From Streptomyces sp. XD-27 (lineage in GTDB: Bacteria; Actinomycetota; Actinomycetes; Streptomycetales; Streptomycetaceae), in assembly GCF_030553055.1 (NCBI RefSeq), contig NZ_CP130713.1:620001-684000 (forward strand): DNA of 64,000 nucleotides, given 5' to 3'. Made by a program: the position numbers and the translations under genes. Positions 6,951-26,975 of this stretch are shown here, in pieces (position 1 is the first letter of the stretch; the number at the start of each line of letters is the position of its first letter). The notes under the pieces are model-generated. The model did no database searches. It was not told the DNA's origin and saw only the letters and a list, made by a program, of their open reading frames with translations.

Positions 6951-8899
6951 TCAGCCGTCCTCGCCGCCGACCAGCATCTGGGAGGCGGCGAGTTCGCGGT
7001 ACAGCTCGTCGGTCTCCACCAGCTCGCGGTGGCTGCCCGCGGCCCGGACGCGGCCGTGCTCCAGGACCACGATCTGGTCGGCCCCGGTCACCGTCGACAG
7101 CCGGTGGGCGATGAGCAGCACGGTGCAGGTGCGGGCGGCCTGGTCCACCGCCTCGCGCAGCGCCCGCTCGTTGCTGGCGTCGAGCGCGGCGGTGGCCTCG
7201 TCCAGCAACAGCACCTCCGGTTTGCGCAGCAGGGCCCGCGCGATGGCCAGCCGCTGGCGTTCGCCGCCGGACAGGGTGACGCCCCGGGTGCCGACCTCCG
7301 TGCGCAGGCCGTCGGGAAGGCGGGCGATCAGCGCGTCCAGGCGGGTCAGCCGCAGGGCCTCGGCGATGTCCTCGTCGGTGGCGTCGGTGGCGGCGTACCG
7401 CAGGTTGTCCTCGATGGTGCCCGCGAGCACCGGCGAGTCCTGCTCCACGTAGGCGATCCGGCGGCGCACCTCGGCCCGGGGCAGGGTGGCGATGTCCACG
7501 CCGTCCAGCAGGATCCGGCCCGACTCGGGTTCGTAGAAGCGCTGGAGCAGCGCGAACATGGTGGTCTTGCCCGCCCCGGACAGCCCGACCAGCGCGGTCT
7601 GGGTGCCGCCGGCGACGGTGTAGGAGATGCCGCGCAGGGCGGGTCCGCGGCCGGGGTAGCCGAAGCGCACGTCGCTGAACTCGACGGTCGGCGGCAGGGC
7701 GGGGCGGGCCGGGAGCGGTTCGTCCCGGGCTCCGGTGTCCAGGTCCACGTCCTCCTCGATCGGCATGCCGCCGACCTGTTCGATGCGGCCCACGGCGCCG
7801 AGTCCCTGCTGGAGCATGCTCAGCCCCGACACCAGGGAGCCGATCGGGCTCGCCAGGTAGAAGACGTACAGCAGGAAGGCGATCAGCTCGGGCGCGCCGA
7901 GGTCTCCGGAGGCGACGAGGGCGCCCCGGCGCCGAGTACGGTGAGGAAGGCGAGCTGGACGGAGACGCCGGAGAGGATCTGCACCACGGCGACGTAGCGG
8001 GCGCCGGTCAGTCCGGCCCGGTACGCCCCCTCGATGGCCTCCTCGGCCAGCTCGGTCTCGCGGCGTTCGGCTCCGTTGGCCTTGACGGTGCGGGCCGCGC
8101 CCAGGGTGCGGTCCAGGGCGGCGCCGACCGCGCCGACGGACTCCTGCGCGCGGGCCACGGCGCCGCTGATCCGGGGCAGGACGAGCAGCATCCCGACGGC
8201 GACGGTGAGCAGGACGGCGAGGGTGATGCCGAGCAGCCCCAGGTGGACCACGCCCATCAGCGCGATCGCGCCCACGATGCTGAGCGTGCCGTTGGCGACC
8301 ATGACCAGGCCGTCGGTGGCGGCGTTCTGCACCAGGGTGCTGTCGGAGGTGACCCGGGCGATGAGGTCGCCCGGGGGCCGGCGGTCCAGCTCCGGCACCC
8401 GCAGCCGGATCATCCGGAAGACCAGGTCCCGGCGGATCTGCCGGACCACGCGTTCCGCGGTGCGCTGCTGCCACCAGGACTGGAGTCCGGTGAGTCCGGC
8501 GCCGAGCACCACCAGGGCGGCCAGCAGCAGGACCGGTCCGACGACGCTGTCGCCGTCGGCCAGCCCCTCCAGGACGTGCTGGGCGACCAGCGGCTGCACC
8601 AGGCCGGCGGCGCTGGCCACCAGGACGAGGAACAGGGTGGCGGTGAGCACCATCCGGTGCGGGCGGGCGTACCGCAGCAGCGTCCGTATGGGGGCGGAGG
8701 CGCCGGGCTCGGCAGTGCCGTCGGGCGCCTCGGGCGCGCTTGCGCCGTCGGAATCGCCGGGCGGGCGGGTGCCGTCGAAATCGCCCGGCGGCCGCGTGCC
8801 GTCGGGATCGCCGCCGGGAGCCGCGGGCGTGTCCTTGCCTCCGGCCGGTGGCGGGAGCTGAGTCCGTGGGTCGGCGGGGGTGTCGGATGCCGTTGTCAT
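6951..8899 (-). CDS. ABC multidrug/lipid exporter, half-transporter; apparent 1-nt frameshift
   Basis: With frame restored, about 649 aa. It has a Pro/Gly/Asp-rich N-terminal tail with repeats of DGTRPPGD, a six-helix membrane domain (residues ~75-370), then an ATPase with Walker A GLSGAGKTT, signature LSGGERQRLAIARALL and LLLDEATAALD. It resembles MsbA/LmrA/BmrA-type exporters. The reading frame breaks near 7924-7927: the upstream frame runs VQLAFLTVLGAGA and the other continues ALVASGDLGAPELIAF. One more G in the G4 run (minus strand) gives an uninterrupted LGAGGALVASGDL. A sequencing error is the simplest explanation. ATG 8899 is the chosen start. It follows the glycosyltransferase by about 120 bp in the same direction. 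Confidence 0.85.
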
Positions 8900-8966
8900 G
8901 TGTGGGTCCTGGGTCCTGGGTTCGCGTTCGTGAGCAGGCGTGCGGGGCCGTGCGCCGCCGCGGGTG

Positions 8967-9043
8967 GTCACGGGCCGGGCGCGGGCCGGGCTGTCACCGG
9001 CCGGGCGCGGCTCGGCGGTCACCGGCCGGGCGCGGGCTCGGCG
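8967..9043. repeat. Three direct repeats of ~25-26 bp at the glycosyltransferase 3' end
   Basis: Three adjacent copies start with GTCACSGGCCGGGCGCGG: 8967-8992, 8993-9017 and 9018-9043. The last copy encodes the final residues (AEPAPGR) and overlaps the stop; the other two lie in the gap before the ABC exporter. It looks like local duplication. Confidence 0.8.
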
Positions 9044-10218
9044 GCGGGCCGCGGGTGCCGGGCGGCGATCCGGTCGAGGTGGTCGGCGGCGGCGGTCACG
9101 CCGCCCGCCGCGCGGAAGGAGCGGCCGATCGCCTCGGCCGCGGCCCGGTGGCCGCCGTCCCCGTCGAGGACGGTCTCGACGGCGGCGCCGAGCCGGGCGG
9201 CGTCGACCCGGTTGAAGCGCACCCGTACCCCGGCGCCCGCCGCGACCACCTGTCCGGCGACGATCGGCTGGTCGTCGCGGATCGGCGCGAGCACCAGCGG
9301 GACCCCGTGCCACAGGGACTCGCAGACGGTGTTGTGACCGCTGTGGCAGACGACCGCGTCGAGGTGGGGCAGCAGGTCCAGTTGGGGTACGTGGTCGAGG
9401 ACCAGCACCCCGTCGGGTACGGCGGTGAGCGTGTGCCCGGGGTCGACGACGATGCCCTGGACCCGGTCGCCGAGCCGGTCGAGGGCCTCGGCCGCGGTGG
9501 CGAGGAACCGGCCGCCGGCGTCCGCGTTCGCCGTGCCGAGCGTGACCAGCACCTTGGCGCGGTCCGGGGCCAGCCGGTTCCAGGGGAAGTCCGGTCCGGC
9601 GGCGGAGCGGGGCGCGATGGCCGGGCCGACCAGGTGCACCCTGTCGTGCGGCAGGGCCGCGTCCCCGATCAGTTCCCGGCCGGTGAACGCCAGGATCCCG
9701 TACGGGGAGAAGCGCGGGTCGCCGGTCCGCGCCGGGTCGCCGAGCCGGCCGCGGAGCCCGGCCAGCAGCCCGTCCAGCCAGGCGCCCACCTTGGGCATGC
9801 CGGCCAGCGGGTCGACGAACTCCGCGGAGGTGCTGGCGGAGGTGACGTGGACGATGCCGTGCCGCTCGGCGACGAGGGCGCCCGCCACCGCGTGCTGGTC
9901 GGTGACCACGACGTCCGGCCGGAAGGTGCGGACCGCCATGTCGACGCCGGGCGCCATGAGTTCCGCCAGCGGGGCGAAGAACTCCTCCCACAGGAACTGG
10001 AAGGCGGCCGGCCCGATGAGCTTGGGCGGTCTGCGGACCTCCGCGCCGGGCATCGCGCACGCGAAGACGGTGGTGTCCGTGCCCGCGAGCCGGCGGATCT
10101 GGTCGGGGTAGCCGGCCCAGGCCACCCGGTGGCCGCGGCGGGCCAGTTCGTGCGCGACGCCGACGAGCGGGTTGGTGTGCCCGACCAGCGGCGGGACGAC
10201 GAGCAGGAACCGGGTCAC
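9019..10218 (-). CDS. UGT/MGT-type glycosyltransferase (GT1 family)
   Basis: 399 aa with the GT-B fold. The N-terminal acceptor domain begins FLLVVPPLVGHTNPLVGVA. The C-terminal nucleotide-sugar domain has VLVTLGTAN, VPQLDLLPHLDAVVCHSGHN (donor-binding His) and HGVPLVLAPIRDDQP. Such enzymes move a sugar from a nucleotide donor to small acceptors such as macrolides or lipids. The GTG start at 10218 overlaps the preceding hydrolase stop by 4 bp (GTGA), so translation is coupled. The neighbouring megasynthases suggest the acceptor is their polyketide or lipid. No deoxysugar genes are present, so a common UDP-sugar is the likely donor (inference). Confidence 0.9.
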   Translation of the reverse strand: MTRFLLVVPPLVGHTNPLVGVAHELARRGHRVAWAGYPDQIRRLAGTDTTVFACAMPGAEVRRPPKLIGPAAFQFLWEEFFAPLAELMAPGVDMAVRTFRPDVVVTDQHAVAGALVAERHGIVHVTSASTSAEFVDPLAGMPKVGAWLDGLLAGLRGRLGDPARTGDPRFSPYGILAFTGRELIGDAALPHDRVHLVGPAIAPRSAAGPDFPWNRLAPDRAKVLVTLGTANADAGGRFLATAAEALDRLGDRVQGIVVDPGHTLTAVPDGVLVLDHVPQLDLLPHLDAVVCHSGHNTVCESLWHGVPLVLAPIRDDQPIVAGQVVAAGAGVRVRFNRVDAARLGAAVETVLDGDGGHRAAAEAIGRSFRAAGGVTAAADHLDRIAARHPRPAAEPAPGR

Positions 10219-11045
10219 CGCACGGCCTCGGCCAGCGGGTGCTCCCGCACTGCCGGCGTGTGTTCGCGCACCCAGTCCAGTATCAGGTCGCGGGTCTCGG
10301 CGGTCCGCTCCACCAGGACCGAGTGGCCCTGGTCGGCGAGGACCACGGTGCGGCAGCGCGGCAGCTTCGCCCGCAGTCCGGGCACCTGGGCGCTGAGCCC
10401 GGACTCGTCGCCGAAGACGGCCAGCATCGGGCAGCCGATGGCGCTGAGGTCGTCGTCGATGACCTTGCTGGCGGGGACGTCCTCGGCGAGCGTGGTGGTC
10501 TGCAGGATCCGGCTGGCGCCCCGGGAGAGCCGGGCGGTGTGCGCGCCGTGGTTGGCCGATATCCAGCGGATGACCTCCTCGTGCCGGAGCTGGTTCTTGG
10601 CGTCGGCGAGTCCGTCGGCCATGTGCCGGGTCCATTCGGCGACCGGCGGTTCGGACTCGATCATGGTCACGGTGGCGACGCGCTCGGGATGCCAGGCGGC
10701 GAGCCCGGTGGCGATCGTGCCGCCGAAGGAGTTGCCGACGACGTGCGCCGGGCGGGTCTCCCCCAGCTCGTCGAGCAGCGCGACCAGGTCGCCGACGAAG
10801 GTCTCCAGCCGGTACCCCTGCCGCGGCCGGTCGCTGCGGCCGTGCCCGCGCAGGTCGTACATGAGCACGTCGATGCCCTGGGCGGCGAACGCGGGGCCGA
10901 GGGTGAAGTAGTAGCTGGCCAGGCTGTCGGTGAGCAACCCGTGGACGAACACCACCAGCGGCGGCTCGGAGCCGTCCGCGGGCCGGGGCTGCGCGGGCAG
11001 TCGCTGGACGTGCGTGGTGATCTCGCCGGTACGGAGCTTGTCCAT
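10215..11045 (-). CDS. Alpha/beta hydrolase, possible chain-release enzyme
   Basis: 276 aa of the alpha/beta-hydrolase fold. The oxyanion region is VFVHGLL, YDLRGHGRSDRP is typical, the nucleophile elbow is GNSFGG (Ser ~115), a likely acid Asp is in FGDES and the catalytic His is in DQGHSVLVE. It lies between the free ACP (4-bp gap) and the glycosyltransferase (4-bp overlap) in the megasynthase operon. Neither megasynthase ends in a thioesterase, so a role in releasing or trimming the chain is reasonable but unproven. Confidence 0.85.
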   Translation of the reverse strand: MDKLRTGEITTHVQRLPAQPRPADGSEPPLVVFVHGLLTDSLASYYFTLGPAFAAQGIDVLMYDLRGHGRSDRPRQGYRLETFVGDLVALLDELGETRPAHVVGNSFGGTIATGLAAWHPERVATVTMIESEPPVAEWTRHMADGLADAKNQLRHEEVIRWISANHGAHTARLSRGASRILQTTTLAEDVPASKVIDDDLSAIGCPMLAVFGDESGLSAQVPGLRAKLPRCRTVVLADQGHSVLVERTAETRDLILDWVREHTPAVREHPLAEAVR

Positions 11046-11049: not shown

Positions 11050-11496
11050 TCAGCTCCGCTCGGTGGCGCGCAGCGACGCGACCACGTAGTCGACGAGCCG
11101 GCCGACGGTCAGCGCGATGATCTCGTCCAGTTCGAGGTCGGCGATGAAGGCGGCGAAGTTGACGCGGTCGCCGTAGTGCTCGCGCAGCGACCCGGAGAGG
11201 GTCACCAGGTCGACGCTCTCCAGTTCGAGGTCGTCGTGGAAGGTGGTCTCCCGGGTGATCTCGGCGTCGTCCAGGGCGTACTCCTCCAGCAGGATCCGCA
11301 GCATGCCCGCGATGTCCACCAGTACGGCGTCGGGGTCCGCGGCCAGGGCGGAGCCGGCCGTCGTCGGGTGTCCCGCGGTCGTGGGGGCGCCCGCGGTCGT
11401 CGGGTGCCCCGCCGTGGTGGTGGGGTTCGCGGTCGTCGCGTGTCCCGCCGCCGCCGTCGTCTGTTCCGCAGTCACAGTCACAGTCTCAGTGCTCAT
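11050..11496 (-). CDS. Free-standing acyl carrier protein with repeat-rich N-terminus
   Basis: 148 aa. Residues ~1-55 are low-complexity Thr/Ala/Gly with near repeats of GHPTTAG. Residues ~57-145 form an ACP helix bundle with the phosphopantetheine site in FHDDLELESVDLVTLSG (Ser of ESVD). ATG 11496 overlaps the stop of the upstream megasynthase by 4 bp (ATGA), and AGGAG precedes it, so expression is coupled. The second megasynthase has a PPTase but no recognisable ACP, so this protein may be its partner or a shuttle to the glycosyltransferase or hydrolase (inference). Confidence 0.88.
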   Translation of the reverse strand: MSTETVTVTAEQTTAAAGHATTANPTTTAGHPTTAGAPTTAGHPTTAGSALAADPDAVLVDIAGMLRILLEEYALDDAEITRETTFHDDLELESVDLVTLSGSLREHYGDRVNFAAFIADLELDEIIALTVGRLVDYVVASLRATERS

Positions 11497-14400
11497 GTCG
11501 CTTCTCCTGATCCGTTGTCCCGGCACTCGTTGTCCCGGCCGTGTCCCTGGCCGTCGGCCGTCCACGCGACCACGTACTCCCGCGCCGGCAGTCCGGGCGG
11601 GTTGGCGCTGCGCCGCACCCGTACGTCGTACGACGCGCCCTGGATCTCGACCCGGAGCCGGTCCGCGGCGGCGGCCACCACGCGGAAGTCGGCGGGCCGG
11701 CCGCGCAGTCCGGTGCCGCGGCGCTTGGCGACCGCCTCCTTGGCCGCCCAGAAGCGGGTGAACCACACTGCCTCGCTGTCGGTCCCCGTCGCCACCCGCT
11801 CCGCCAGCAGGGCCAGTTCCCCGGCGTCGCACGCCGCCTCGATCGTGGGCCGCGGCCGTTCGGCGACCTCCTCGATGTCGATCCCGCAGGGCCCGCGCCG
11901 GGCGATGGCCACCCCGGCCTCGGCCCGGTGCGCGAGGGAGACCACCAGGCCGTCGCCGAGCGCGCGGCCGTGCACCCCATGGACCGTGGGGCGGCCTTCG
12001 GCGTCGTTGCGGACGGCGATCTCGGCCGGATAGATGTCCCCGGGCTCCTCGGCCCACAGCAGGGCGCGGACCGCGTCCTTGGCGGCGATCCGGCCGAGCA
12101 GCCACTGGCGGCGGCGTACCGGCGGGAGCTTCTCGTAGTGGGTACGCTCGTCGCCGCCGAGGATGTTCCGCCTGATCAGCTCGCGGGTGGCCAGGTCCGG
12201 CCAGCGTTCGTGGACCTCGGCCCAGCCTTCGGGCCGGAGGGTGGACAGGGTGTTGCTCCCCGGGAAGCGGTCCACGGCCCGGATGTTGGGGTCGGTGTCG
12301 AAGCGGCGGTCCTGCCAGCCGCTGAACTGCGCCCAGACCCGGCCTTCGTGGACGAGCTGCATGTCCGCGGTGAGGGTGCTGTCGGTGACGTCGGTGATCC
12401 GGATGGCGCACTCCAGCCGGTCGCCGGGGCGGGGGTGGGGGCCGTGGAAGCGGATCTGGTCCATCCGTACGGGGAAGACGGTGGTGCGCTCCGTCAGCGT
12501 CGCCATGATCCAGTAGCCGAGGAGCTGGCCGACGTTGTCCAGCAGCGCGCCGGGCGGGCCGGGATCGGTGAGCACGCCGCGTACGTGCCGGTCGCCGAGG
12601 GCGGTCAGCTCGCTGACGCCCTGGAAGCGCGGGCCGTGGAACATCCACCGCTCGCTGTAGAGCTGTTCCGCCGTCAGCTCGGGGACGCGCTCGGCGGCCT
12701 GGTCGACGGGCCAGGGCGCGGGCGGCGCGGAGTACCGGGGCGCCAGCTCGACCACGGCCTCCGAGGAGCCGACGAGGCTGACGTGGACGCGGTCGGGCGC
12801 GGTCCGGCGCACCTGTACGGGGACGTCGACGGCCGGGATCGCCTCGATCCACTTCAGCAGCCGTACGTCGTGCACGGCGATCGCGCGCGTCCCGGGGACG
12901 GCGCGTTCCGCGATGCCCATGAGGTGGGTGACGACCGTCGTGGCGGGGACGATCGGCCACCGGTCGCCGTCGTCCGGCCAGCCGGGCCGCTGGCGGAAGA
13001 AGCAGTGGTCGAGGAGATAGGGCATCTCGGCCACGTCCACGCGGAGCACGTCGGAGAGGGGTGGGCCGGAGGGCGGTGCGGGCGGCACGGACGCGAGCCC
13101 TTCGGCACCGCTGGCGGGGGTACGGACGCGGTCCGACGCGCCGGGGACCGCGGGAGATCCGGGGGCCACGGGGGCCACTGACGGCCCGGCGGGCCCAGCG
13201 GGGCCGGTGGACCGCCCCGTGGGCGGCACGGCCGGCCCGGCAACGCCGCTCGTGGCCGCCGCGCCGAGACGCGGCGTCACCACGGACGTCACCGCGGACG
13301 TCACCGGCGCGCCGGGCGGCACGAGAGGCGCTGCGGACTGCGGGCCGCCGGTGCGCGGCGGCACGGCCACGCGGGCGTCGGCGGGCCGGGACACCGATGC
13401 CGCGTCGGCGGCGGAGATGCCCCGGCCCTGAACGGCGGCACGGGCGTCGAGGAGTTCGCCCGCGAGCGCAGCGGTGTCGTAGAGCAGCGCGGACAGTTCG
13501 GCAGCCGCCGGGTGACCGGCACCGGAGCGGCCGAGCCGGTCCAGCACGCTGTCGTCGGCGGGCGCGGCGGAACGGACCGGCGCCGCGCCGAGCAGGCCCC
13601 GAGCGTGCGCGGGCAGCGAGACCAACGCCCCACCGAGGTCGAGCCGAACCCCGGGCCGGTCCGCAGGGGCGGCTCCGGTCGCCGCCGAGGCGGTGGTGGC
13701 CGGGGCCACGCCAGTACGGGCCGTGGCAGTGCCGTGTTGCGCGCCAGCCGTCCGGGGCGCGCCGTGCGCGGCCCCGGCGTCGGCGGGCGCGGCATCGGCT
13801 GCCCCGGCGTCCCGGGACCCGCTGTGCGTGGACCCGGTGTCCACGGGCCCGGCGGCGCCCGGCTCGGCGCCCTCGACAGCCCCGTAGCCCACCGTAGACG
13901 GAGACGGAGACGGCGTCAGCAGAGGTCCGGCGTCCGGGGTCGCGCCGGTTGCCCACAGGGCGGTGACCACCCGGCGCAGCTGCGCCAGGCAGTCCCGGCC
14001 GGTGGCGTGCGCGGAGACCACGAGCCGGTCGCGGCCGGCCAGGGTGTCGTCGATCAGCGAGCCGATCTGGCCCGCGCCGAGCTGGATGAAGGCGCGGTAC
14101 CCGGCGCCGTGCATCGCGTCGATCATCAGGCGGAACCGCACCGGCTCCAGCAGGTGGCGGACGAACAGCTCCCGGACGCCGGCCGGGTCCTGCGGATAGG
14201 GCGCGGCGGTCGTGGCGGACCAGACCGGGGTGGTCTGCGGGTGCAGGGTGTAGGTCTCCGCGGCGCGCCGGATCGGGTCCAGGTACGGGGCGAGCATCGG
14301 GGTGTGGAAGCCGGAGCGGAACGGCAGGATCTGCCCGATCACCCCCTGGCCGCGCAGCCGTAGCACGATCTCCTGGACCGCGCCCTCCGGGCCGCAGATC

Positions 14401-16763
14401 ATCGACTGGTTGGGCGCGTTGTCGTGGGAGAGCACCACGTCGGTACGGTCGGCGAGTTCGGCGAGCACCCGGTCGGCGGGCAGGCCGAGGACGGCGAAGG
14501 CCGCGCCCGGCACCCGGAGCGCGTCCGGGTCGAAGTCGGCGAGGAAGGCGTCGACCTCGTCGTCGGCGTGGATGCCGCCGCAGGCCATGGCCGTCCACTC
14601 GCCCACGCTGTGCCCCGCGACGGCGTCCGGCACCACGCCCAGGCGGCGCAGCGCCGTGTCGAGCAGCCGGCCGAGCTGGAACACGGCCGCGCCGTGCCGC
14701 CCCACGTCACCGACCTTGGCGCCGTCGCCGGCGGACCAGTCGAGCGCGAAGTGCCGTGCCAGCTCGGCCACACGGGGGTCGAACTCGGCCTCCAGGCCGG
14801 GGAAGACGAACGCGGTGCGGCCGCCTGCCGGGCCGAGCAGCGGCGCCGGGCTGAACCACACGTCGCTGCGGCCCTGCCAGGGCTTGCCCTTGCTCAGCAC
14901 CTTGCGGGCCAGCGCGAGCCTGCGCGCGGTGGGGTCCACGATGCCCAGCCGGGCGGGTGCGGTGACGGACGCACGCTCGTCCAGACCGGCGGCCAGGACC
15001 GCGGCGTCGTCGGCGTCCAGCAGCGCGGCCAGCGCGCCGGGACCGGACGCGGCCAGGCGCAGCACGCGCTCCGGCTCGGACACGACGGCGCGGGCGGTAC
15101 GCGGTTCCGAGCCGGTACGCGGCTCCGTCGCGGTGGCGGCCTCGCGCTGCGGCGCGGTACGCGGTTCCGACGCGGTAGGCGATCCCGGCGCGGTGCGCAA
15201 CTCGGGCGCGGTGGCGGCCTCTTGCTGCGGCGCGGTACGCGATTCCGGCGCCGTGCGCCGGCCCGGCGCGGCGGCGACCTGTCGGCGCGGCGCGGTGCGC
15301 GGTTCCGTCGCGGCCTGTTCCAGTACGACGTGCGCGTTGATGCCGCCGAAGCCGAAGGCGTTGACGGCGGCCCGGCGCGGCGCTCCGGTGGTCGGCGGTG
15401 CCCAGGGGCGGGCCTCGGACAGCGGGGCGAAGCGGGTGTCGGCCAGGCCCGGGTGGGGGTCCTCGCAGTGCAGGGTCGGCGGCAGCACGCCGTGGTGCAG
15501 CGCCAGCGCGGCCTTGATCAGGCCGGCGATGCCCGCCGCGGGCATGGTGTGGCCGATCATGGACTTCACCGAGCCGATCGCGGCCCGCTCGCCCCGGGCC
15601 GGGCCGAACACCTCCGCGAGGGTGGCGAGTTCGGCGCGGTCACCGGCCGGGGTGGCGGTGCCGTGCGCCTCCAGCAGCCCGATCGCGTCCGCCGCCCGGG
15701 GGTCGAGCCCCGCCGCGTCCCACGCCTGGCGTACGGCACGGACCTGGCCGCCGGGGTCGGGGTTGAACAGGCTGGCCGTGCGGCCATCGCTGGCGACACC
15801 CGTACCGGAGACCACGGCGTAGATCCGGTCGCCGTCGCGTTCGGCGTCCGCGAGCCGCTTGAGGACCACGACGCCGGTGCCCTCGCCGATCAGCACGCCG
15901 TCGGCGTCCCGGTGCAGCGGGCGGATCCGCTGGCTCGGCGAGAGCGCGCCGAGCTGGCTGAAGACGCTCCACAGGGTGATGTCGTGGCAGTGGTGCACTC
16001 CCCCGGCCAGCATCACGTCGCAGCGCCCGGCGGCGAGTTCCCGGGCCGCGTGGTCGACGGCGACCAGCGAGGAGGCGCAGGCCGCGTCGACGGTGTAGGC
16101 GGGGCCGCGTAGGTCCAGCCGGTTGGCGACCCGGGAGGCGGCCAGGTTGGGCACCAGGCCGATGGCCGACTCCGGCTGTTCCGGGCCGAGTTGGTCGGTG
16201 AACGCCGACCGCACCCGCTCCAGCCGGTCGTCGTCGATGTCGGGCACCAGCTCGCGCAGCGTGCGGACCAGCTGCTGGGCGGTGCGCACCCGCTGGTCGA
16301 GCCGGACCAGTCCGGGCGTCAGATAGCCGCCGCGGCCCAGCACGACGCCCACCCGCTGCCGGTCGGCGGGCAGTACCGCCGCGCCGCCCGCGTCCGCGAT
16401 CGACTGATGGGCCACGTGCAGGGCGATGAGCTGGTCGGGCTCGGTGCCGGGCACCGATGCCGGCATGATGCCGAACCGGGTGACATCGAACTCGGCGTCC
16501 GCGTCGACGAACCCGCCGCGCCGGCAGTAGACCCGGTCCGCCCGGCGGGGCCCGTCGGGGGCGTAGAACTGCTCGTCCCAGCGTCCGGCGGGGACGTCCG
16601 TGATGGCGTCCACGCCGCCGACGATGTTCCGCCAGTAGCCGTCCAGGTCCCTGGCGCCCGGCAGGAACACTGCCATGCCGACGATGGCGACCGGTACGCG
16701 GTGAGTGTCGGGTGCGTGGGGAGTGTCCGATATGTGGGGGGTGTGCGGGGCCATCCAGGTCAC
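11493..16763 (-). CDS. Iterative type I PKS/secondary-lipid synthase, KS-AT-DH-PPTase
   Basis: 1756 aa, with approximate domains as follows. KS is 25-480 (VAIVGMAVFLPGA; active Cys in DAACASS, His in EAHGTAT and GHTMPAAG, so it looks competent). An Arg/Thr/Ala/Pro repeat linker is 485-565. AT is 645-945 (FPGLEAEF instead of GQGSQ; GHSVGEW; GFHTPM). A low-complexity Ala/Pro/Gly stretch is 945-1235. DH-like is 1238-1490 (DHCFFRQRPGWP, WPIVPATT, LDNVGQLLG). The 4'-phosphopantetheinyl transferase is ~1525-1735 (CGIDIEEVAER; FWAAKEAVAKRRGTGL). Fusion of DH and PPTase at the C-terminus recalls enediyne PKSs; the separate KS-AT protein recalls PfaC/PfaB. GTG 16763 overlaps the upstream stop (GTGA). 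The product is unknown. Confidence 0.88.
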   Translation of the reverse strand: MTWMAPHTPHISDTPHAPDTHRVPVAIVGMAVFLPGARDLDGYWRNIVGGVDAITDVPAGRWDEQFYAPDGPRRADRVYCRRGGFVDADAEFDVTRFGIMPASVPGTEPDQLIALHVAHQSIADAGGAAVLPADRQRVGVVLGRGGYLTPGLVRLDQRVRTAQQLVRTLRELVPDIDDDRLERVRSAFTDQLGPEQPESAIGLVPNLAASRVANRLDLRGPAYTVDAACASSLVAVDHAARELAAGRCDVMLAGGVHHCHDITLWSVFSQLGALSPSQRIRPLHRDADGVLIGEGTGVVVLKRLADAERDGDRIYAVVSGTGVASDGRTASLFNPDPGGQVRAVRQAWDAAGLDPRAADAIGLLEAHGTATPAGDRAELATLAEVFGPARGERAAIGSVKSMIGHTMPAAGIAGLIKAALALHHGVLPPTLHCEDPHPGLADTRFAPLSEARPWAPPTTGAPRRAAVNAFGFGGINAHVVLEQAATEPRTAPRRQVAAAPGRRTAPESRTAPQQEAATAPELRTAPGSPTASEPRTAPQREAATATEPRTGSEPRTARAVVSEPERVLRLAASGPGALAALLDADDAAVLAAGLDERASVTAPARLGIVDPTARRLALARKVLSKGKPWQGRSDVWFSPAPLLGPAGGRTAFVFPGLEAEFDPRVAELARHFALDWSAGDGAKVGDVGRHGAAVFQLGRLLDTALRRLGVVPDAVAGHSVGEWTAMACGGIHADDEVDAFLADFDPDALRVPGAAFAVLGLPADRVLAELADRTDVVLSHDNAPNQSMICGPEGAVQEIVLRLRGQGVIGQILPFRSGFHTPMLAPYLDPIRRAAETYTLHPQTTPVWSATTAAPYPQDPAGVRELFVRHLLEPVRFRLMIDAMHGAGYRAFIQLGAGQIGSLIDDTLAGRDRLVVSAHATGRDCLAQLRRVVTALWATGATPDAGPLLTPSPSPSTVGYGAVEGAEPGAAGPVDTGSTHSGSRDAGAADAAPADAGAAHGAPRTAGAQHGTATARTGVAPATTASAATGAAPADRPGVRLDLGGALVSLPAHARGLLGAAPVRSAAPADDSVLDRLGRSGAGHPAAAELSALLYDTAALAGELLDARAAVQGRGISAADAASVSRPADARVAVPPRTGGPQSAAPLVPPGAPVTSAVTSVVTPRLGAAATSGVAGPAVPPTGRSTGPAGPAGPSVAPVAPGSPAVPGASDRVRTPASGAEGLASVPPAPPSGPPLSDVLRVDVAEMPYLLDHCFFRQRPGWPDDGDRWPIVPATTVVTHLMGIAERAVPGTRAIAVHDVRLLKWIEAIPAVDVPVQVRRTAPDRVHVSLVGSSEAVVELAPRYSAPPAPWPVDQAAERVPELTAEQLYSERWMFHGPRFQGVSELTALGDRHVRGVLTDPGPPGALLDNVGQLLGYWIMATLTERTTVFPVRMDQIRFHGPHPRPGDRLECAIRITDVTDSTLTADMQLVHEGRVWAQFSGWQDRRFDTDPNIRAVDRFPGSNTLSTLRPEGWAEVHERWPDLATRELIRRNILGGDERTHYEKLPPVRRRQWLLGRIAAKDAVRALLWAEEPGDIYPAEIAVRNDAEGRPTVHGVHGRALGDGLVVSLAHRAEAGVAIARRGPCGIDIEEVAERPRPTIEAACDAGELALLAERVATGTDSEAVWFTRFWAAKEAVAKRRGTGLRGRPADFRVVAAAADRLRVEIQGASYDVRVRRSANPPGLPAREYVVAWTADGQGHGRDNECRDNGSGEAT

Positions 16764-19700
16764 CACCCCGACGCGGTGTAGACCGCGGCGTGCACCGTGG
16801 GCGCGCCCCAGGCGAGTTCGCGCAGCAGGCTCAGCGGCCCCTCTTCGGGGTCGATGAGCTTGATGCCGCGCGCCGCGTACGAGCGCATCAGCTCGGGGGT
16901 GACCATGCCGCCGCCGGTCTCGGCCGCCGCCCACGGCCCCCAGTGGACGGTCAGGCCGCGCCGGTCGCCGGTGGACCAGCGGCGGCCCAGCTCCTCCAGC
17001 GCGTCGTTGGCGGCCGCGTAGTCGCTCTGGCCCCGGTTGCCCAGCGCCCCCGCGATGCTGCCGAACAGCACCGCGAACCGGGGCTCGGCGGGGGTGGCGT
17101 CGACCGCGTCCAGCAGGACGCGGGCGCCGTCGACCTTGGTGGCGAACACCCGGCGGAAGGACTCCGCCGACTTCTCGGCGATCAGCTTGTCCTCGATGAC
17201 CCCGGCCGCGTAGACGACGCCGTCGAGCCTGCCGTGCTCGGCGTGGACGGCCTTCACCGCGGCCCGTACCGCTTCGGAGTCGAGGACGTCGACGCAGTGG
17301 TAGCGCGCTTCGCTGCCCAGGTCGCGCAGGGCGGCGAGGGTGGCGCGTACCTCGCGCTCGGCGAGCACGGCCGCCACGCGGCGCTCGATCTGGGCGGGAG
17401 CGGACATGCCGGAGGCGAGGAGGGCGGCGCGCAGCCCGTCCCGGCCCTGCGCGCCGGCGGTCGCCGGGTCCTCGGACTCCGGCGGGACGGGGGTGCGGCC
17501 CATCAGTTCGATGCGGCAGCGGCTGGTGGCGGCCAGCGTGCGGGCGAACCGGGCGGTGATGCCGCGGGCGCCGCCGACCAGCAGGACGACGGAGTCGCGG
17601 TCGAGCCCGGCCGCCGCGGCCTCGGCGGCGCCGTCCCCGGCCGGTCCGGCGCCGGTCGCGCCGAGCGTGCCCAGGCCGGTGGGGGTGAGCCGCAGGGCGC
17701 GCCGGGTGCCGCCGCGGCTGAGGACGACCGGTTCCCGGTCGGTGGCGGCGAGTTCGGCGGCCAGGGTGTCGGCCACGGCCCGCGGGCTTGCGTCGGCCGC
17801 CACCTCCACCAGGGTCGCGGTGAGTTCGGGGTACTCGCGGGCGACGGTGCGGAAGAAGCCGCGCAGTCCGGTGGCCGCGCCCTCGGTCCTGCGGTCCGCG
17901 GCGAGCAGCCGGCGGGGCCCGGTGGCCAGGACCCGCTGGTACAGCTCGAACGTCTCCGGCAGCGGGGGCTCGGCCGCGTCGAGGGCGTCCAGGAACAGGA
18001 CGGCGTCGGCGCTCCCGTCGGGCAGGTCGCCGCCGGTGATCCGCCGGGAGCGCGCACCGGCGGCGGTCAGCCGCTCGGCCACGGCCCGGGCCACCGCGCC
18101 GCTCTCCCCGCCATCCCCGCCGTCGCCGCCACCGAGGATCCACACGGTGGCGCCGGGTGCGACGGTTCCGGTCACGGCGGGCAGCTCGGCCTCGGTGAAC
18201 TCCAGGCGCTGCGGGGGCAGGACCTCGGCGGCGGGCGAACCGGTCGCGGAGGCCGTCCCGGCCCCCGCGGTCGCTGCGGCCGTCCCCGCAACCCCGGCGG
18301 AAGCGATGGAGGCGACGGAAGCGGCGGGGCCGGGCTCGGGATCGGCCGGTCCACCGAGCCGCTCGGCCAGCAGCCCCGCGATCCCCGCGGCCGTACGCGC
18401 CGTACTCAACCCCTCCAGATCGGCACCCGCGTCCACCGGCAGCCCCAACCGCGCCGCCAACTCACCCGCAATCTCAGCCCGCTTGATCGAATCCACACTC
18501 AGATCCGCCTCGAGATCCAAACCCGGCTCGATCATCTCCACCGGATACCCCGTACGCTCCGCCACCACCGACAACACCGAGGCCAGCACGGCCTCGCGGT
18601 CCGGCGCGGCGGGGGTAGTGGGGGGTGCGGCCGGTTCCGGGGCGACGAGGGCCGCGGGGACGGCCGCGGGGATGGCCGGTGCGGCGGTCGCCGCGGGGAC
18701 GACGGGGAGGGCGGGGGCGGCCGGGACGGCGTCCGTTGCACCGAGGTAGCGCAGCAGGACGTCGCGCTGCGCGGCGACCATCTCCCGGCTGGTGCGCAGG
18801 AACTCGGTGATCAGGGCGTCGGGTCCGGACAGCGGTATGCCGTGGGGGGTGGCGTTCTCCGACACGTTCAGCTCCGTGACGACTCGGGCGGGTTGCAGGG
18901 CGTGGGGCGGGATGGTGCCGTCGGCGAGGCGCAGCAGCTGGCCGTCCACGGTCCAGCCGGCGGGCCGTGCCGCCGGGGCGGTCTCCGCGTCGACCGCGTC
19001 GCGGCCCTGGAAGAGCGGACCGGTGCGCAGGTCCACGCCGCTGACCGCGAGCCCGGCGAGGGCGGTGAGGAAGCCGGTCAGCCCGCCCGCGCGGCCGCCG
19101 CCGTCCAGTTGGACCGTGCGGTGCGGGCGGTCGCCGAGCTGCGCCGCGACCAGTCGGCTCAGCACCCGGCCGGGGCCGACCTCGACGAAGGTACGGGCGC
19201 CGGCGGCGTACATCGCCTCGATCTGCTCGGCGAACCGGACCGGCGCGCCGATCTGCGCGGCGAGCCCGGCGCGTATCTCCTGGGGATCGGCCGGATACGG
19301 CTCGGCCGTGCGGTTGGCCCAGACCTCGACGCGGGGCGGGCGCACGGTCAGCGGGTCCAGGCGGCGGGCGAAGGCCTCGCCCGCGCCGGCCACCAAAGGG
19401 CTGTGGAAGGCGCAGGCCACCTGGAGCGGCTTGACCGGGTGGCCGGCGTCGCGCAGTCGGCCGACGGCCGTGGCGACCCGCTCCGTCGGGCCGGATATCA
19501 CCGTCTGCCGGGGCGAGTTGCGGTTCGCGGTGACGACCTCGGTGTCCAGGCCTGCCGACCGCAGGACCTCGTCGACCTGCTCGGGGGTGGCGGTGACGGC
19601 GGCCATCGCGCCGGGGTCGCCCGCGGCGACCTCGGCCAGGATCACCTCGGCGCGTGCGGCGCTGGCGGTGAGTACGTCGTGCGGTGCGAGCGCCCCGGCC

Positions 19701-22700
19701 ACGCCGAGGGCCACGAGCTCGCCGTAGCTGTGCCCGGCGGCCATGTCGGGGTGTACGCCGACCATGGCCAGCAGTTCGGCGGCGGCCAGCTCGACCACGC
19801 CGAGCGCGGGCTGGGCGACGGCGGTGTCGGTGATCCGGGCGAGCTGCTCGGCCTTGGCGGCCTCGTCGAACGCGGCGGGCGGGTAGAGCGTGTCCGCCCA
19901 GCGCGCGCCGAGGTGCAGATAGCGCTGGAGCTCGGGGAAGGCGACGAAGAGGTCGGCGAGCATGCCGGGCCGCTGACTGCCCTGACCGGGGAAGAGGAAC
20001 GCCAGCTTGCCGGGGTCGGCGGGAGCCTGGTCCGCGGCGGCGGATGCGCCGATGCCAGACTCCACGGCGGCGGATGTGCCGATGCCGGTGTCCGCGGCGG
20101 AGCCGGCTGCCTCGCCCGGCTCTTCCCCACGGTCCGCGAAGAGCCCTGCCGCCGGGTCGTGTTCGCCGTCGGCCGCCCGGCGGAGCAGGGCGGGCAGCTC
20201 GGTCAGGCTCGGGGCGACGACCGCGATCCGTACCGGTTCGCCGCGCAGCGCGGCCTGGTCGCCGCGGCGGGCGGCGGTCCGCGCGTAGTCCCGCAGCCGC
20301 CAGGTGCCGCCGCGCTCCACCAGTTCCAGCAGGCCGCGGGCGGCGCGGCGGGCCGCGGCGGCGTCCTGGCCGCGGAAGGTGAGGAGTTCGGCGGGCCAGG
20401 CGTCCAGGGCGTGCGGGGCGGGGGCCTGGTCGTAGGCGCGCAGGACGACATGGAAGTTCGTGCCGCCGAAGCCGAAGGCGCTCACGCCCGCGACCCGTTC
20501 GGCGGGTTCGGCGGCCCACGGGCGGGCGGCGGTGTGGAAGACGAAGGGGCTGCGCTCGGCGTCCCAGGCCGCGTTCGGCTCCCGTACGTGCAGGGTCGGG
20601 GGCTTGATCCCGTGGTGGAGCGCGAGGGTCGTCTTGATCAGCCCGGCCAGCCCGGCGGCGCACTTGGTGTGGCCGATCTGGGACTTCACCGAGCCGATCG
20701 CGCAGGAGCCGGGCGCGGAGCCGGCTTCGGCGAAGACCTCGGTCAGGGTGGCGAGTTCGGTGCGGTCGCCGACGACGGTGCCGGTGCCGTGCGCCTCGAT
20801 GAGGCCGACGTCGGCCGGGGAGACCCCGGCGTTGCGGTACGCGCGGTCCAGCGCGGCGCGCTGCCCTTCGGGCGGGGCGCGGTCAGGCCGAGCGCGCGGC
20901 CGTCGCTGGCGCTGCCGACGCCGTCGATCACGGCGTAGATCCGGTCCCCGTCGCGTTCGGCGTCGGCGAGCCGCTTGAGTACGACGCAGGCCACGCCCTC
21001 GCCGAGCGCGATGCCGTCGGCGGCGGAGTCGAAGGTCGCCGAGCGCCCCGAGGGCGACAGCGCGTGAACGGAGGAGAAGAGCAGATAGTCGTTGATGCCG
21101 TTGTGCAGGTCGGCGCCGCCGCACAGCACCAGGTCACTGGTGCCGGTGGACAGTTCCTTGCAGGCGACGTCGACGGCGGTGAGGGAGGAGGCGCAGGCGG
21201 CGTCGACGGTGTAGTTGGCACCGCCGAGGTCGAGGCGGTTGGCGATCCGTCCGGCGATGACGTTGGCGAGCAGGCCGGGGAAGGAGTCCTCGGTCAGCCG
21301 CGGCAGCTGCGCGTCGAGTGCGGGCGGCAGCTCGCCGATGTAGGCGGGCAAAACGGTGCGCAGGGTGCTGGCGTTGGACAGGTCGCTGCCCGCCTCCGCG
21401 CCGAAGACCACGGAGGTACGGGCGTGGTCGGTGCCGGCCGTGGCGTAGCCGGCGTCGGTCAGGGCGCGCCGGGCGGCCTCCAGCGCGAGGAGCTGGACGG
21501 GTTCGATGGCGGCCAGGGAGGCGGGCGGGATGCCGTACTGGAGGGGGTCGAAGGGTATCTCCGGCAGGAAGCCGCCCCACCGGGACGGGGTCCGCTCGCC
21601 GTCGCCGTCCGGCGCGTAGTAGCGCTCGGTGTCCCAGCGGTGGCCGGGGACCTCGGTGACGCAGTCCTTGCCGGAGAGGATGTTGGCCCAGAAGGCGGAC
21701 AGGTCCTCGGCGCCGGGGAACATGCCGGCCATGCCGACCACCGCGATCCGCAGCGGTGCGGGCGCGGGCTCTTCGGCGGTCCGGTCCAGGCCCAGGCGGG
21801 TGCGGAGTTCACCGGCCCTGGCGCGCAGGTGGCGGGCGGCGCCCTCGCCGACGGACGCGTGGAGCGCGGCGACGGTGGTGGTCCGGTCGCGCAGGACGCA
21901 GACCTCGCCGGCCATGAACATGCCCTCGCCGGCCTGGCGTTCCTCGTCGACCGGGCGCAGTTCGCCGCCGACCCGCTCGATGCCCTTGCTGGCCAGGCGG
22001 AGCCTGCCGACGTTGAACTTCTCCAGCTGCTCCCAGATCTCGCGGTCGGGTACGCCCTGTTCGCGCAGGGTGCTCTTGCGGTCGGCGAAGTCGGCGGTGA
22101 AGGCGCTGTGCGCGCACCGGGTGGCGTGGCCGGGCGCGGTCTCCAGCAGGTCGGTGCGGTCGGCGGCGAGGATCTGGCGCTGGAAGAGCGGCTGGATCGC
22201 GCCGGCGCGTACCGCTTCCTCGGTGAAGAGGTAGCCGGTGCCCATCAGCACGCCGTACGCGACGCCCGCCCGGGTCAGGGGTGCGGCCAGGGCGGCGACC
22301 ATGGCGGAGGACCGCTCGTCGTGCACCCCGCCCGCGAAGAGGACGGTCAGCTCGGCGGCCGCGACGGGCTCGGCGGCCACGAAGTCGAGGAGGACGCCGA
22401 TCTGGGCCTCCCACAGCGGGAAGCTGTTGCGGGGGCCGACGTGGCCGCCGCACTCGGCGCCTTCGAAGATGAACCGGCGGGCTCCGGCGCCGAGGAACTG
22501 CCGCAGCAGGCCGGGGGACGGAACGTGCAGGAACGTGGTGATGCCCGCCGCTTCCAGGGCGGCGGCCTGCGGGGGCCGGCCGCCCGCGATGATGGCGTGG
22601 GTCGGCTTCAGTTCCCGTACGACGTCCAGTTGGGCGGAGCGGATCTCCTCGTCGGCGAAGCCGAGGACGCCGACGCCCCACGGGGCGTCGCCGAGCGCGT

Positions 22701-23775
22701 CGCGGGTGCGCTCCAGCAGGGTGTGGGTCTGCTCCCCGGAGGCGAGCGCCAGGGCGAGGAAGGGCAGCGCGCCCTCGGCGGCCACGGCGGCTGCGAACGC
22801 GGGCTGGTCGCTGACGCGGGTCATCGGGCCCTGGGCGACGGGCAGTGCGGTGCCCAGGGCGCGGGCGCCGGGCGAGCCGGCGCCGAGGGCGGTGGCCGGC
22901 GCGTCGTCCTCGAAGGCCGCCTCGATGGCCGAGCGCAGCCCCTTGACGGCTTCGCCGACCGTGCGCCAGCGGCGGGCGAAGGTGTCGGCGAGGAAGGCGT
23001 CCTGTCCGACCGGCAGGAACTGGGTCCGCAGGTCGTCGCTGCCGATGCGGGCGGCGAACTCCTCGGCACCCTCGGGGAGTTCGGGGGCGCCGGGGCCGCG
23101 CCGACGCAGCACGCGGATGCCGTGGTGGGTGACGGTCTCGGAGCCGTCGAGGCCGGTGAGCGCGGCCGCCACCGCCATCGGCAGACCGGCCTCGTCGTAC
23201 AGGGCGAGCTGGGTGTCGATCACGACGCCCGCGGCGCCTCCGGCGACGGCGGCGGCGGCCGTGTGCGGCCCGATTCCGCCGCATGCCCAGACGGGCAGCG
23301 CGAGCGCCTCTTCGGCGAGAATCCGCTGGAGGAGGACGAAGGTGCTCAAGGGCCCGGCCCGCCCGCCGCTCTCGCTGCCGCGGACGATCAGCCCGGCGGC
23401 CCCGGACTCGGCGGCGCGCAGCGCTTCCTCACGGTCCGTCACCTCCACGAGGACCTGGCGTCCGGGGAACTCCCCGGCCGAGCGGCGGGGGTCCGCGAGG
23501 AGTACCGTGCCGGCCTGTTCGGGCAGTTCGTCGGCGCGCACGGCGCAGCCGGGGCGTATCCGTATGCCGAAAGGCCGCGGCGACCAGCGGCTGGCGCGGT
23601 CGAGCACGTCGGCGAGTTCTCCGGGATCGCCGACGGGCAGTTCCAGCACTCCGAGCGCGCCCGCCCGTGCCGCGGCGGCGGTGAGCCGCGGGGACGGCCG
23701 GTGCACCGGATTGACGGCTATGACGACAGGGAAAAGGGAGGGCTGGGTGGAGCTGCTGGAACCCGGCATCCGCAT
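16760..23775 (-). CDS. PUFA-synthase-like type I PKS, ER-ER-KS-AT-ACP-KR; apparent 1-nt frameshift
   Basis: About 2338 aa once frame is restored. Two consecutive FMN TIM-barrel enoyl reductases of the PfaD/FabK/nitronate-monooxygenase type fill residues ~6-305 and ~308-600 (SESGGRAGP, then AECGGHVGP). KS is ~677-1108 (DAACASS, EAHGTGT, GHTKCAAG). AT is ~1255-1550 (FPGQGSQ, GHSYGE, AFHSP, malonyl-like). One ACP (DLSVDSIKRAEI, Ser ~1759) is followed by KR ~2060-2270 (GGARGI; FGSIAG, SDYAAAN). The KS is broken at 20874-20877: GLTAPRPKG shifts, and one more C gives TAPPPEGQRAALDRAYRNAG. ATG 23775 has GGGAGA at the right distance. It is first in the operon. Confidence 0.88.
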
Positions 23776-23810
23776 GAAGTCTCCCGACTGCACGATCTGC
23801 TGATCGCTGG

Positions 23811-23841
23811 TAGTTAACTGGGCAGTTTTCGCTGCGGTCAA
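23811..23841 (-). promoter_or_regulatory. Probable promoter of the megasynthase operon
   Basis: Reading leftward, TTGACC (23841-23836) is a good -35. Eighteen nt downstream is TTAACT (23817-23812), a plausible -10. It lies about 40-60 bp before the ATG at 23775. The flanking TAGTTA/TAACTA half-sites make an imperfect dyad that could be an operator. No regulator can be assigned. Confidence 0.5.
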
Positions 23842-24308
23842 CTAACTACATCCCGCACCGACTCACTCTCTGTCACCAACTGCGGGTAACCCGCCGGTGA
23901 ACCCGAGCCGTTCCGCCATTGCAAAACGGGGCGTTTCCCACGTCCGCAATCCCGAGACCATGTGGCTGATACGTGCCTGCCATGCCCATGAAACTCTCGG
24001 CACACATCAGAAAACGCATTCTGTGCGCAAGATCACACGCGCAGGGATGATAATTCGACAACTGACTGAATTTGTATCCCCTAACGGCTTCGGCTGCGAA
24101 CTTCGCCCCCACGCTACGGCCAGTGGCGGCCCCGCCACTCGAATATCGACATCGACCCGGTCGAGCTGCCACCGGCCATGAGCGGCTGGTCATTACGTGT
24201 CCGCACTTACCGCTATTAATGGGGCATCAGCAATTTCCCCAAGGGGCGGCGGTTGACGCCTTCCTGGCGCCCCGTCAGGCTGGCAGCCCATGTTCCCGAG
24301 AGGATGGA
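23842..24308. other. Divergent intergenic region, lower GC, no gene seen
   Basis: About 470 bp between the leftward megasynthase operon and the rightward FAD oxidoreductase. Base composition is much less GC-rich than its surroundings. Short reading frames on both strands lack Streptomyces codon bias. It probably carries the divergent promoters; I see no clear RNA gene or terminator. Confidence 0.6.
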
Positions 24309-25691
24309 GTGCCGGTGAGTGACGCGGTGGTGGTCGGCGGCGGGCTGGCGGGGATGCTGGCCGTGGGGGCACTGCTCGACCATGTGGACACGGTCACCGT
24401 CGTCGAACGCGACCGCTACCCGGCCGAGCCCGTCTTCCGCAAGGGCGTGCCCCAGAGTCGGCACCTGCACGTCTTCCTCACCGGCGGCCAGCGCGCCCTG
24501 GAGTCCCTGCTGCCCGGAACGCTCGCGGAACTCGAGGCCGCGGGGGCGCGCCGCCTGGAGGCGCCCCGCGACTTCCTCACCCGCGCCCCGAGCGGCTGGC
24601 AGCGGCGCTACCACGAGGGCCGGCACTCCATGATCAGCTGCACCCGCCCGGTCTTCGACGCCACCGTGCGCGCCCGGGTGCTGGCCGATGCCGCGAAGTC
24701 CCGCACCCGGGTGGCGGTGCTGGAGGGCAGCGAGGCCGTCGGCCTGCTGGGCGGCGCGGACCGGGTCACGGGGATTCGGGTCCGCTCCCGCGACGCCGGG
24801 CGCGCGGAGCGGGAACTGCCCGCCGACCTCGTCGTCGACGCGTCCGGGCGCGGCTCGCGCGCCCCGAGGTGGCTGGCGGAGCTGGGCCGCCGGCCCCCGC
24901 GCGAGGAGGTCGTGGACGCCGGGATCGCCTACACGACGCAGATGTTCCGGCCCGCCGCGCCGCTCGACGCGGGGATCGCGGTCCAGGCCCGGGCCGACTG
25001 CCCGCGGGGCGCGGTCTGGTGCCCCGTGGAGGACGGCAACTGGCTGCTCACCCTGGCCGGGGTGCGCGGCCACCACCCGCCGACCGAGTCCGCCGGCGTC
25101 CTGGACTTCGTGGCCTCCCTCGACGAGCCGCACCTGCGCGACCACGTCCGGGCCGCCGAGGCGGTGGCCCCGGCGTACGGCTTCCGCGACACTTCCAACC
25201 GCCGTCGCCGCTACGAGGCGCCGGGCGGGGTGCCCGACGGCCTCGTCGTGGTCTCCGACGCCGCCTGCACCTTCAATCCGATCTACGGCCAGGGCATGTC
25301 GGTCGCCGCGATGAGCGCCCGCGCCCTGCGTGACATCGCCTCGGCCCGCGATCTGTCGGCGCCCGGCTTCGCCGCGGCGGCCCAGGCGGCCACGGCCCGG
25401 GCCGGCGACACCGCCTGGATGACCGCCGTCGGCGCGGACCGGCCGTACGCCGCGGCCGACGACACCACGCCGCCGGGTCTCCCCGAACGGCTGCGGACCT
25501 GGTACTTCAACCGTCTTGTGGCCCGCGCGGCCATCGACCGCACGGTCGGGGCCGCCTTCCGCGACCTCACGTTCATGACCGCGGGGCCGGGCCGGCTGCT
25601 CGCCCCCTCCGTCGCCCTGCGCACGCTCCTCCTGCCACGCCGGCCCGGTCTCGCGGGCCCGCCCGTACGCCCGCGGAGCACCGTCGGCTGA
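24309..25691 (+). CDS. FAD-dependent oxidoreductase (hydroxylase/reductase fold)
   Basis: 460 aa. The N-terminal dinucleotide fold is [11 protein letters not shown] (residues ~7-17) with the ribose-binding Glu in [10 protein letters not shown] second FAD contact is [20 protein letters not shown] (residues ~317-336), the GD-like motif of the PHBH/geranylgeranyl-reductase superfamily; the usual Gly-Asp is Ser-Asp. Such enzymes hydroxylate or reduce aromatic or polyene substrates. GTG 24309 follows GAGAGG; GTG 24315 is an alternative. It is transcribed divergently from the megasynthases and is the only obvious redox tailoring gene next to them, so modification of their product is a reasonable inference. 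Confidence 0.82.
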
Positions 25692-25720
25692 GTCGGGTCC
25701 GGCGCGGGCGACGGTCCGCG

Positions 25721-25758
25721 CACCCAGGGGCACGGGCGACGGCCCGCGTCCCTGGGTG
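25721..25758 (+). terminator. Two-part hairpin terminator after the FAD oxidoreductase
   Basis: Outer arms CACCCAGGG (25721-25729) and CCCTGGGTG (25750-25758) pair perfectly, and inner arms CGGGC/GCCCG pair inside them. It starts about 30 bp after the stop and is placed to end transcription before the alcohol dehydrogenase. Confidence 0.75.
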
Positions 25759-25839
25759 GTACTGCCAGTCCTAGGCACGCCGGTCCTAGGTCCAAGGGAG
25801 CTCTTGTCCGCCCGGCCCGGCCCCCGCAGGGTTGGGGAA

Positions 25840-26895: not shown

Positions 26896-26903
26896 CCGGC
26901 GAA

Positions 26904-26934: not shown

Positions 26935-26975
26935 GTCTCATGGCGGCCGGCGGCGCGCCCCGTACGCCGGTCCGG

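Follow-up and report, generated by a model that had tools for sequence, protein, structure and literature searches.

A Type M-like secondary lipid synthase operon of Streptomyces sp. XD-27 that probably makes a glycolipid

Several families of iterative 'secondary lipid' synthases related to the polyunsaturated fatty acid (PUFA) synthases have been catalogued by gene layout. According to the available part of that catalogue, Type M is listed in Streptomyces avermitilis, Frankia, Actinosynnema and Renibacterium with an uncharacterised product, and Beijerinckia is classed with Azotobacter in Type P, the ars type (PMC3098273, Shulse and Allen 2011). The Renibacterium cluster has been likened to a fused pfaDA together with a fused pfaBC carrying a phosphopantetheinyl transferase (PPTase) domain (PMC13291983), and for Azotobacter it is reported that ArsA makes C23-C25 fatty acids and that ArsD is a PPTase (PMC4824345). 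Here we analyse a 64,000-nucleotide stretch of Streptomyces sp. XD-27 (the window; positions 620001-684000 of a 7.55 Mb single-contig genome) that contains an operon coding for two megasynthases, which we call P1 and P2, followed by genes for a free acyl carrier protein (ACP), an alpha/beta hydrolase, a glycosyltransferase (GT) and an ABC exporter. We conclude that the gene set is real and widespread, that it is a secondary lipid synthase operon of a kind already catalogued, and that it probably makes a glycolipid, although it is frame-broken in this assembly. More specifically, we lean by a small margin over even towards a Type M-like iterative synthase with kinship to ArsA, whose long and mostly reduced chain would be released, given a sugar and exported.

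The operon occupies the minus strand from 23775 to 6951 in the order P1, P2, free ACP, alpha/beta hydrolase, GT1 glycosyltransferase and MsbA-like ABC exporter. The preliminary description of this DNA had proposed a one-strand gene set joined mostly by GTGA/ATGA overlaps, and both points hold: every domain that it named is recovered on the minus strand with Pfam and NCBIfam models, and overlaps are present between P1 and P2 (GTGA, 16763-16760), P2 and ACP (ATGA, 11496-11493), hydrolase and GT (GTGA, 10218-10215) and, conditional on GTG 9022 being the exporter start, GT and exporter (GTGA, 9022-9019), with ACP and hydrolase separated by a 4-base gap. The ends of the interval that it gave agree with the P1 start at ATG 23775 and the ACP stop at 11050; P1, P2 and ACP lie inside this interval, and the hydrolase, GT and exporter genes (11045-6951) lie outside it. 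Its megasynthase layouts are likewise correct as to the domains, but it overlooked two frame breaks, one in P1, which is not a single open frame, and one in the exporter gene, and the two enoylreductases (ER) of P1 are not equivalent.

P1 has the domain order ER1-ER2-KS-AT-ACP-KR by Pfam and NCBIfam (KS, ketosynthase; AT, acyltransferase; KR, ketoreductase). Its first frame (20743..23775, minus strand) codes for ER1, ER2 and the N-terminal part of KS1, as seen from Pfam matches to NMO and ketoacyl-synt, the FabK model and GC-frame, and its second frame (16760..20885, minus strand) codes for the remainder of KS1, AT1, one ACP and KR, as seen from Ketoacyl-synt_C, Acyl_transf_1, PP-binding and KR matches, motifs and the frame change. 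The structural model of ER1 is FabK-like (mean model confidence, pLDDT, 88.4) with T. maritima FabK as its best PDB matches. Counted as an alignment column over 74 rows, however, the FabK His position of ER1 is occupied by Arg in 61, as in the window, by Pro in 7, by His in 1 and by another residue or a gap in 5, whereas ER2 keeps the His in 74/74. This His is catalytic in FabK, and ER1 is predicted from its loss to be dead as an enzyme. The Cys-His-His set of KS1 is complete. AT1 carries the motifs GHSYGE and CAFHS, the latter presumably of malonyl type, each with 64 occurrences in the 64 P1 homologues longer than 2100 aa. The window P1 has a single ACP with the motif LSVDSIKR, and a motif count over the same 64 proteins gives one ACP in 49 and two in 15.

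P2 (11493..16763, minus strand) contains KS2, AT2, a dehydratase (DH) and the PPTase; its start at GTG 16763 overlaps the P1 stop, with an alternative ATG at 16754. Pfam finds a single KS in this protein, and its Cys-His-His residues are intact. Together with the KS tree described below, this argues that KS2 is a catalytically intact enzyme that is neither PfaC-type nor a chain-length factor (CLF). AT2 has the motif GHSVGEW, and GHS[VIL]GEW is found in 71/71 P2. The DH had no Pfam match in the window P2 at E 1e-3; its AlphaFold model (12219..13052; pLDDT 85.9) folds as a double hot-dog with the polyketide synthase (PKS) dehydratases CurH and CurJ as best PDB matches, and Pfam PS-DH is matched on the homologous Beijerinckia protein. 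At the level of the model the domain is thus confirmed as a DH of PKS type, and the DH motif LLDxxGQ has 65 occurrences in the 71 P2. The PPTase domain (11565..11891) belongs to the ACPS superfamily (PF01648, E 2e-14; SLAH, GIDIE and WAAKEA motifs), with 68, 57 and 57 occurrences of the SxxH, GIDxE and KEA patterns in the 71 P2. In the window translation its P1a motif (xGxP) reads EGRP and its P1b' motif (hShxH) reads VSLAH; the P0 pattern is not in the window and is present in 1/71 relatives. In the available part of the catalogue, P1a and P1b' with no P0 form the PPTase signature of Types M, N, O, P, R, S and T jointly (PMC3098273).

The tail of the operon, again on the minus strand, starts with the free ACP (11050..11496), which matches NCBIfam ACP models under their cut-offs (best E 3.6e-07), and continues with the alpha/beta hydrolase (10215..11045; PF00561, E 1.9e-26), a candidate chain-releasing thioesterase. 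The GT (9019..10218) is of the GT1 type, MGT/EryCIII-like, with matches to Pfam EryCIII-like_C and UDPGT and, under the cut-off, to TIGR01426 MGT (E 1.9e-43). The last gene (6951..9022) codes for the MsbA-like exporter, whose membrane half (to ~7920; ABC_membrane) and ATPase half (ABC_tran) are in differing frames; TIGR02204 MsbA_rel is the best model for both halves, under its cut-off.

Relatives were collected by scanning one genome per species with P2, which gave at least 80 loci. The best-matching 80 are mostly titled Streptomyces, the others being mainly further actinomycetes, for instance Kitasatospora, Kutzneria, Kribbella and Umezawaea, and in 71 of them P2 is longer than 1400 aa from stop to stop. 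ACP, hydrolase and GT follow P2 in the same order and on the same strand in 69 of these 71 loci; of the two exceptions, one ends with its contig (L060) and one gave no hydrolase match (L117). A DH-PPTase homologue is present in 37 of the 101 sampled members of the genus, with an identity of at least 54% in 28 of these 37, and in 7 of 296 genomes of the phylum, or 5 of 198 genera, with the XD-27 genome included in both counts. In the four phylum members outside the genus, ACP and hydrolase stand beside the DH-PPTase in 4/4 and a GT match in 2/4, the GT count being limited to short loci around the DH-PPTase. Domains, active-site residues, gene order and its conservation are directly observed. 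One genome of the genus (G055 C3) contains two DH-PPTase copies, at 70% and 56% identity.

Among plasmid records, ars-like operons are the nearest kin outside this family. A search of 72,556 plasmid records with the DH-PPTase gave 85 matches, and among the best 20 of these the nearest outside the family are from Beijerinckia, Methylosinus and a Rhodobacteraceae plasmid; KS1 likewise finds Beijerinckia indica and Methylosinus as its nearest plasmid matches outside the family. The Beijerinckia plasmid locus has the ars gene order, that is, a type I PKS, two KAS III-type (type III PKS-like) genes and a DH-PPTase, then a GT and an ABC/RND exporter, and from strain and gene order it appears to be the Type P locus of PMC3098273. 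Its PKS is homologous along the length of P1 including ER1 (tandem ER 42%, N-terminal KS1 50%, KS-AT 38%, KR 37%), the first copy of its tandem ER is also without the His, and its DH-PPTase is 29% identical to that of the window. The ER region is matched in the ars-like loci L172 and L173 and in the Rhodobacteraceae locus L181, and has no match within ~10 kb on each side in seven other PfaA-type loci (L174-L180). Two of these plasmids hold additional features. The Rhodobacteraceae plasmid (L181) shows yet another layout within the same lineage, with genes for a P1 homologue that has the tandem ER, for a TauD dioxygenase and a methyltransferase, and for a PPTase protein of 1296 aa, and on the Methylosinus plasmid a second very large type I PKS (L173 20292-29437) adjoins the ars-like operon.

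We built a KS tree of 41 rows from 32 chosen loci, eight of which are without a row (L037, L038, L168-L171, L182, L183); two CLF-like rows and the KS1 of L068 were left out, and the long branches L179, L181, L176 and L180 were included. In this tree KS1 joins the ars-like pair (94/85), and both lie within the PfaA-type KS (97/98). KS2 forms a clade of its own (100/100) that lies outside the four second KSs of PfaA/PfaC-like loci, which we label PfaC-type and of which two are followed by a CLF-like domain. Alignments and tree show kinship of P1 and the DH-PPTase to the ars-like operon. As to whether the KS domains nest in a clade with a known product, this is at most half the case: KS1 lies beside, and not inside, the clade with the Type P Beijerinckia member.

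From these features we propose the following scheme. The PPTase at the end of P2 would prime both the P1 ACP and the free ACP, and P1 and P2 would act as one iterative complex in which malonyl units enter through AT1, the chain is lengthened by KS1 and KS2, each with a complete catalytic set, and KR, DH and ER2 reduce it. ER1, predicted to be dead, would serve as a structural or docking domain, and KS2-AT2 would be a separate KS-AT pair placed before an ArsD-type DH-PPTase, in the position of the KS-CLF pair of PUFA synthases. The chain may then pass via the free ACP, be released by the hydrolase, or both, after which the GT1 enzyme would glycosylate it, probably from a common nucleotide sugar, and the ABC exporter would move the glycosylated chain out. 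Chain length, reduction pattern, sugar, export and a direct P1-P2 interaction are the parts of this scheme that we infer. Tentatively, and at odds well short of even, Type M may be a lineage related to ArsA whose chain-length factor gave way to an additional, catalytically live KS-AT that became fused to the DH-PPTase; Actinomycetota would use it for undescribed exported long-chain glycolipids, with the genes present in about one third of Streptomyces.

Several observations weigh against this scheme. The nearest neighbour of KS2 in the tree is weakly supported (80/52), and the available text of PMC13291983 calls the second protein of Renibacterium a pfaBC homologue, which the KS tree does not support for KS2. 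The window P1 has one ACP, as opposed to the tandem ACPs of PUFA synthases. Because the GT is of family GT1 here and of GT4 in Beijerinckia, the glycolipid parallel between the two is an analogy and not a homology; moreover, no phenolic lipids were found from a Beijerinckia strain, as far as the available part of the catalogue reports (PMC3098273). The hydrolase might instead act as a thioesterase in editing, and the GT in self-protection. Finally, the ABC exporter is not core to the cluster: among the 66 relative loci with a downstream open reading frame (ORF) it is found in 11, whereas 45 have a methyltransferase resembling the one in the NBC_00984 plasmid cluster (L119).

A different concern is whether the cluster is functional in this strain, where P1 and the ABC gene are frame-broken in the assembly and activity is therefore in doubt. 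The N-terminal part of KS1 is in ORF 20743-23841 and its C-terminal part in ORF 16760-21124, with the coding frame shifting at ~20880; the frame of the ABC gene shifts near 7920, between its membrane and ATPase halves. A programmed frameshift in KS1 was rejected, as KS1 is read in a single frame in 68 of the 69 loci with KS1 orthologues. That genuine frameshifts in KS1 and the ABC gene have killed the cluster is a possibility that we regard as real yet doubtful. It is favoured by the two changes lying ~13 kb apart, by the unbroken frames of KS1 in these relatives and of all 11 ABC orthologues, and by a break rate that seems lower in the core genome, where an intrinsic frame test, blind to breaks with a stop nearby (the ABC break included), found 4 frame changes in 310 kb of core coding sequence of this genome and 2 in 312 kb of a relative. 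An orthologue-based error test on few pairs gave 1 break in 11 pairs for this genome versus 0 in 9 for the relative. Against a dead cluster, both changes coincide with or adjoin short runs of C or G, which are common sites of sequencing error, and genome completeness is 96.92, whereas of the 56 other genomes listed 53 reach 98-100. Another ketosynthase of this genome (C1:175756-176507, ~176 kb) is also matched in two frames, a third possible break. The odds are further lowered because a frame change at some point of P1 is also seen in 7 of 69 relatives (L042, L052, L053, L067, L108, L115, L116), a pattern as compatible with error as with repeated loss; five of these breaks are around the ACP-KR stretch and that of L116 is in KS1 itself, near the same place as the window break, and the other 62 relatives have no P1 frame change.

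The nature of the product can also be read in other ways. A partly unsaturated or hydroxylated polyketide, such as a polyene or polyol chain made with ER used in some rounds only and then glycosylated, would suit a macrolide-type GT family that needs hydroxyl acceptors, and PUFA synthases do program reduction round by round; we nevertheless consider it rather unlikely given the invariant ER2 His and given that ArsA, the characterised kin by family, makes fatty acids (PMC4824345). It is improbable, though still conceivable, that GT and exporter serve as self-protection against a bioactive product and are not glycolipid-building steps: for the GT there are matches, under the cut-offs, to the MGT family and to self-immunity models of the OleI kind, and yet it is the GT that is kept with the synthase and the exporter that mostly is not. 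A canonical PUFA synthase with EPA- or DHA-like products (eicosapentaenoic and docosahexaenoic acid), as annotated for the S. coelicolor SCO0124-0129 cluster, has very little in its favour beyond omega_3_PfaA being the best NCBIfam model for KS1, AT1-KR and KS2. An intact relative (L041) scores 927.6 bits against TIGR02813 (PfaA), under the cut-off of 1010.1, P2 has one KS that stands apart from PfaC-type KS, the DH is of PKS type, the P0 motif is missing, and S. coelicolor has another layout, Type L, in the available part of PMC3098273. The chance of an enediyne-type PKS, with which the preliminary description had compared the cluster, is close to negligible. The PPTase fused after the DH recalls such enzymes, but on layout, which is the basis of this judgement as the KS tree is without enediyne KS, two KS on two proteins and a tandem ER speak against it; the DH-PPTase plasmid search gave the comparison no support either, as its nearest matches outside the family are the Beijerinckia, Methylosinus and Rhodobacteraceae ones, and 15 of the best 20 of its 85 matches span the PPTase part only. 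The long, largely reduced and glycosylated chain remains our slightly favoured product.

The operon is probably bounded at the tested flanking ORFs, because these (up1-up5, dn1-dn3) have only few weak matches (28-33%) across 118 loci. In agreement with the preliminary description, no deoxysugar gene family was found among the scanned flanking ORFs, which lie between 3946-6940 and 24072-31519. A promoter scan 5' of P1 gave no promoter-like site and one terminator-like site. Adjoining the P1 start is a divergent FAD-dependent oxidoreductase with a weak halogenase-like match (24072-25691, plus strand), beyond which, upstream of the operon, are a zinc alcohol dehydrogenase and a long coding-like ORF whose sole match is a weak C-terminal P450 (26976-28724, minus strand). 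At the other end a TetR-family regulator (6045-6821, plus strand) is convergent with the ABC exporter and is a candidate export regulator.

Taken together, a large share of the Streptomyces genomes sampled here carry, with its fixed ACP-hydrolase-GT tail, a synthase type that received its name in 2011 and for which no product was found in the open-licence literature. This conserved set leads to a testable prediction, namely a glycosylated long-chain lipid, and since relatives with unbroken frames exist (the clusters of Streptomyces sp. L-9-10 and NBC_00984, for example) the product question is answerable from them. The system would also be an example from nature of a synthase that has two KS and no chain-length factor. 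The earlier view of an iterative PUFA-synthase-like system that has a PPTase fused to it and a GT and exporter linked to it is supported, as is, within the open-licence literature, the statement that it has no described product. The view that the arrangement is undescribed is not supported, since Type M was already catalogued (PMC3098273) and a corresponding Renibacterium layout is given in PMC13291983, as far as the available text of both sources goes.

Compared with known systems, the cluster probably belongs to Type M. It shares with the available descriptions of that type an actinobacterial host, a fused pfaDA-like protein (ER-KS-AT-ACP-KR) and a second KS protein ending in a PPTase with P1a and P1b' and without P0. 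As this comparison is by published layout and PPTase motifs and not by Type M sequences, and as none of the best 80 loci is titled with a listed Type M strain, we call it Type M-like. The available parts of the published descriptions make no mention of a tandem ER, of a second KS without CLF or of an ACP-hydrolase-GT tail; the predicted dead ER1, the apparently intact KS2 without chain-length factor, the ars kinship of P1 and the DH-PPTase and the fixed tail thus go beyond them. With the ars operons (Type P), for which Beijerinckia stands in our comparison with Azotobacter sequences outside it, the cluster has in common the tandem-ER P1 homologue and the DH-PPTase protein, and in Beijerinckia a GT and exporter alongside. 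It differs in that the ars operon has type III PKS genes in between, of which there are none in our operon or its scanned flanking ORFs, no KS-AT before the DH-PPTase, and a GT4 enzyme. The PfaA-E PUFA synthases (Types A and B) resemble it in their KS-AT-ACP-KR order, ACP motif and FabK-type ER, from which the window departs by no KS-CLF being found, one PKS-type DH, a fused ER, a PfaA score under cut-off and no P0. Enediyne PKSs are single KS-AT-ACP-KR-DH-PPTase proteins. The S. coelicolor SCO0124-0129 'EPA' cluster (Type L) is likewise a Streptomyces PUFA-like cluster with an unproven product, but it has a KS-CLF-DH2-AT fusion and a separate ER in the available part of the catalogue (PMC3098273). 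Heterocyst glycolipid (hgl) islands include export. These islands (Type F) share with our cluster the working logic of a long-chain synthase plus a sugar head group, and differ, by description only and as far as the available part of PMC3098273 goes, in an hglC of KS-CLF-AT layout and in being without DH/I.

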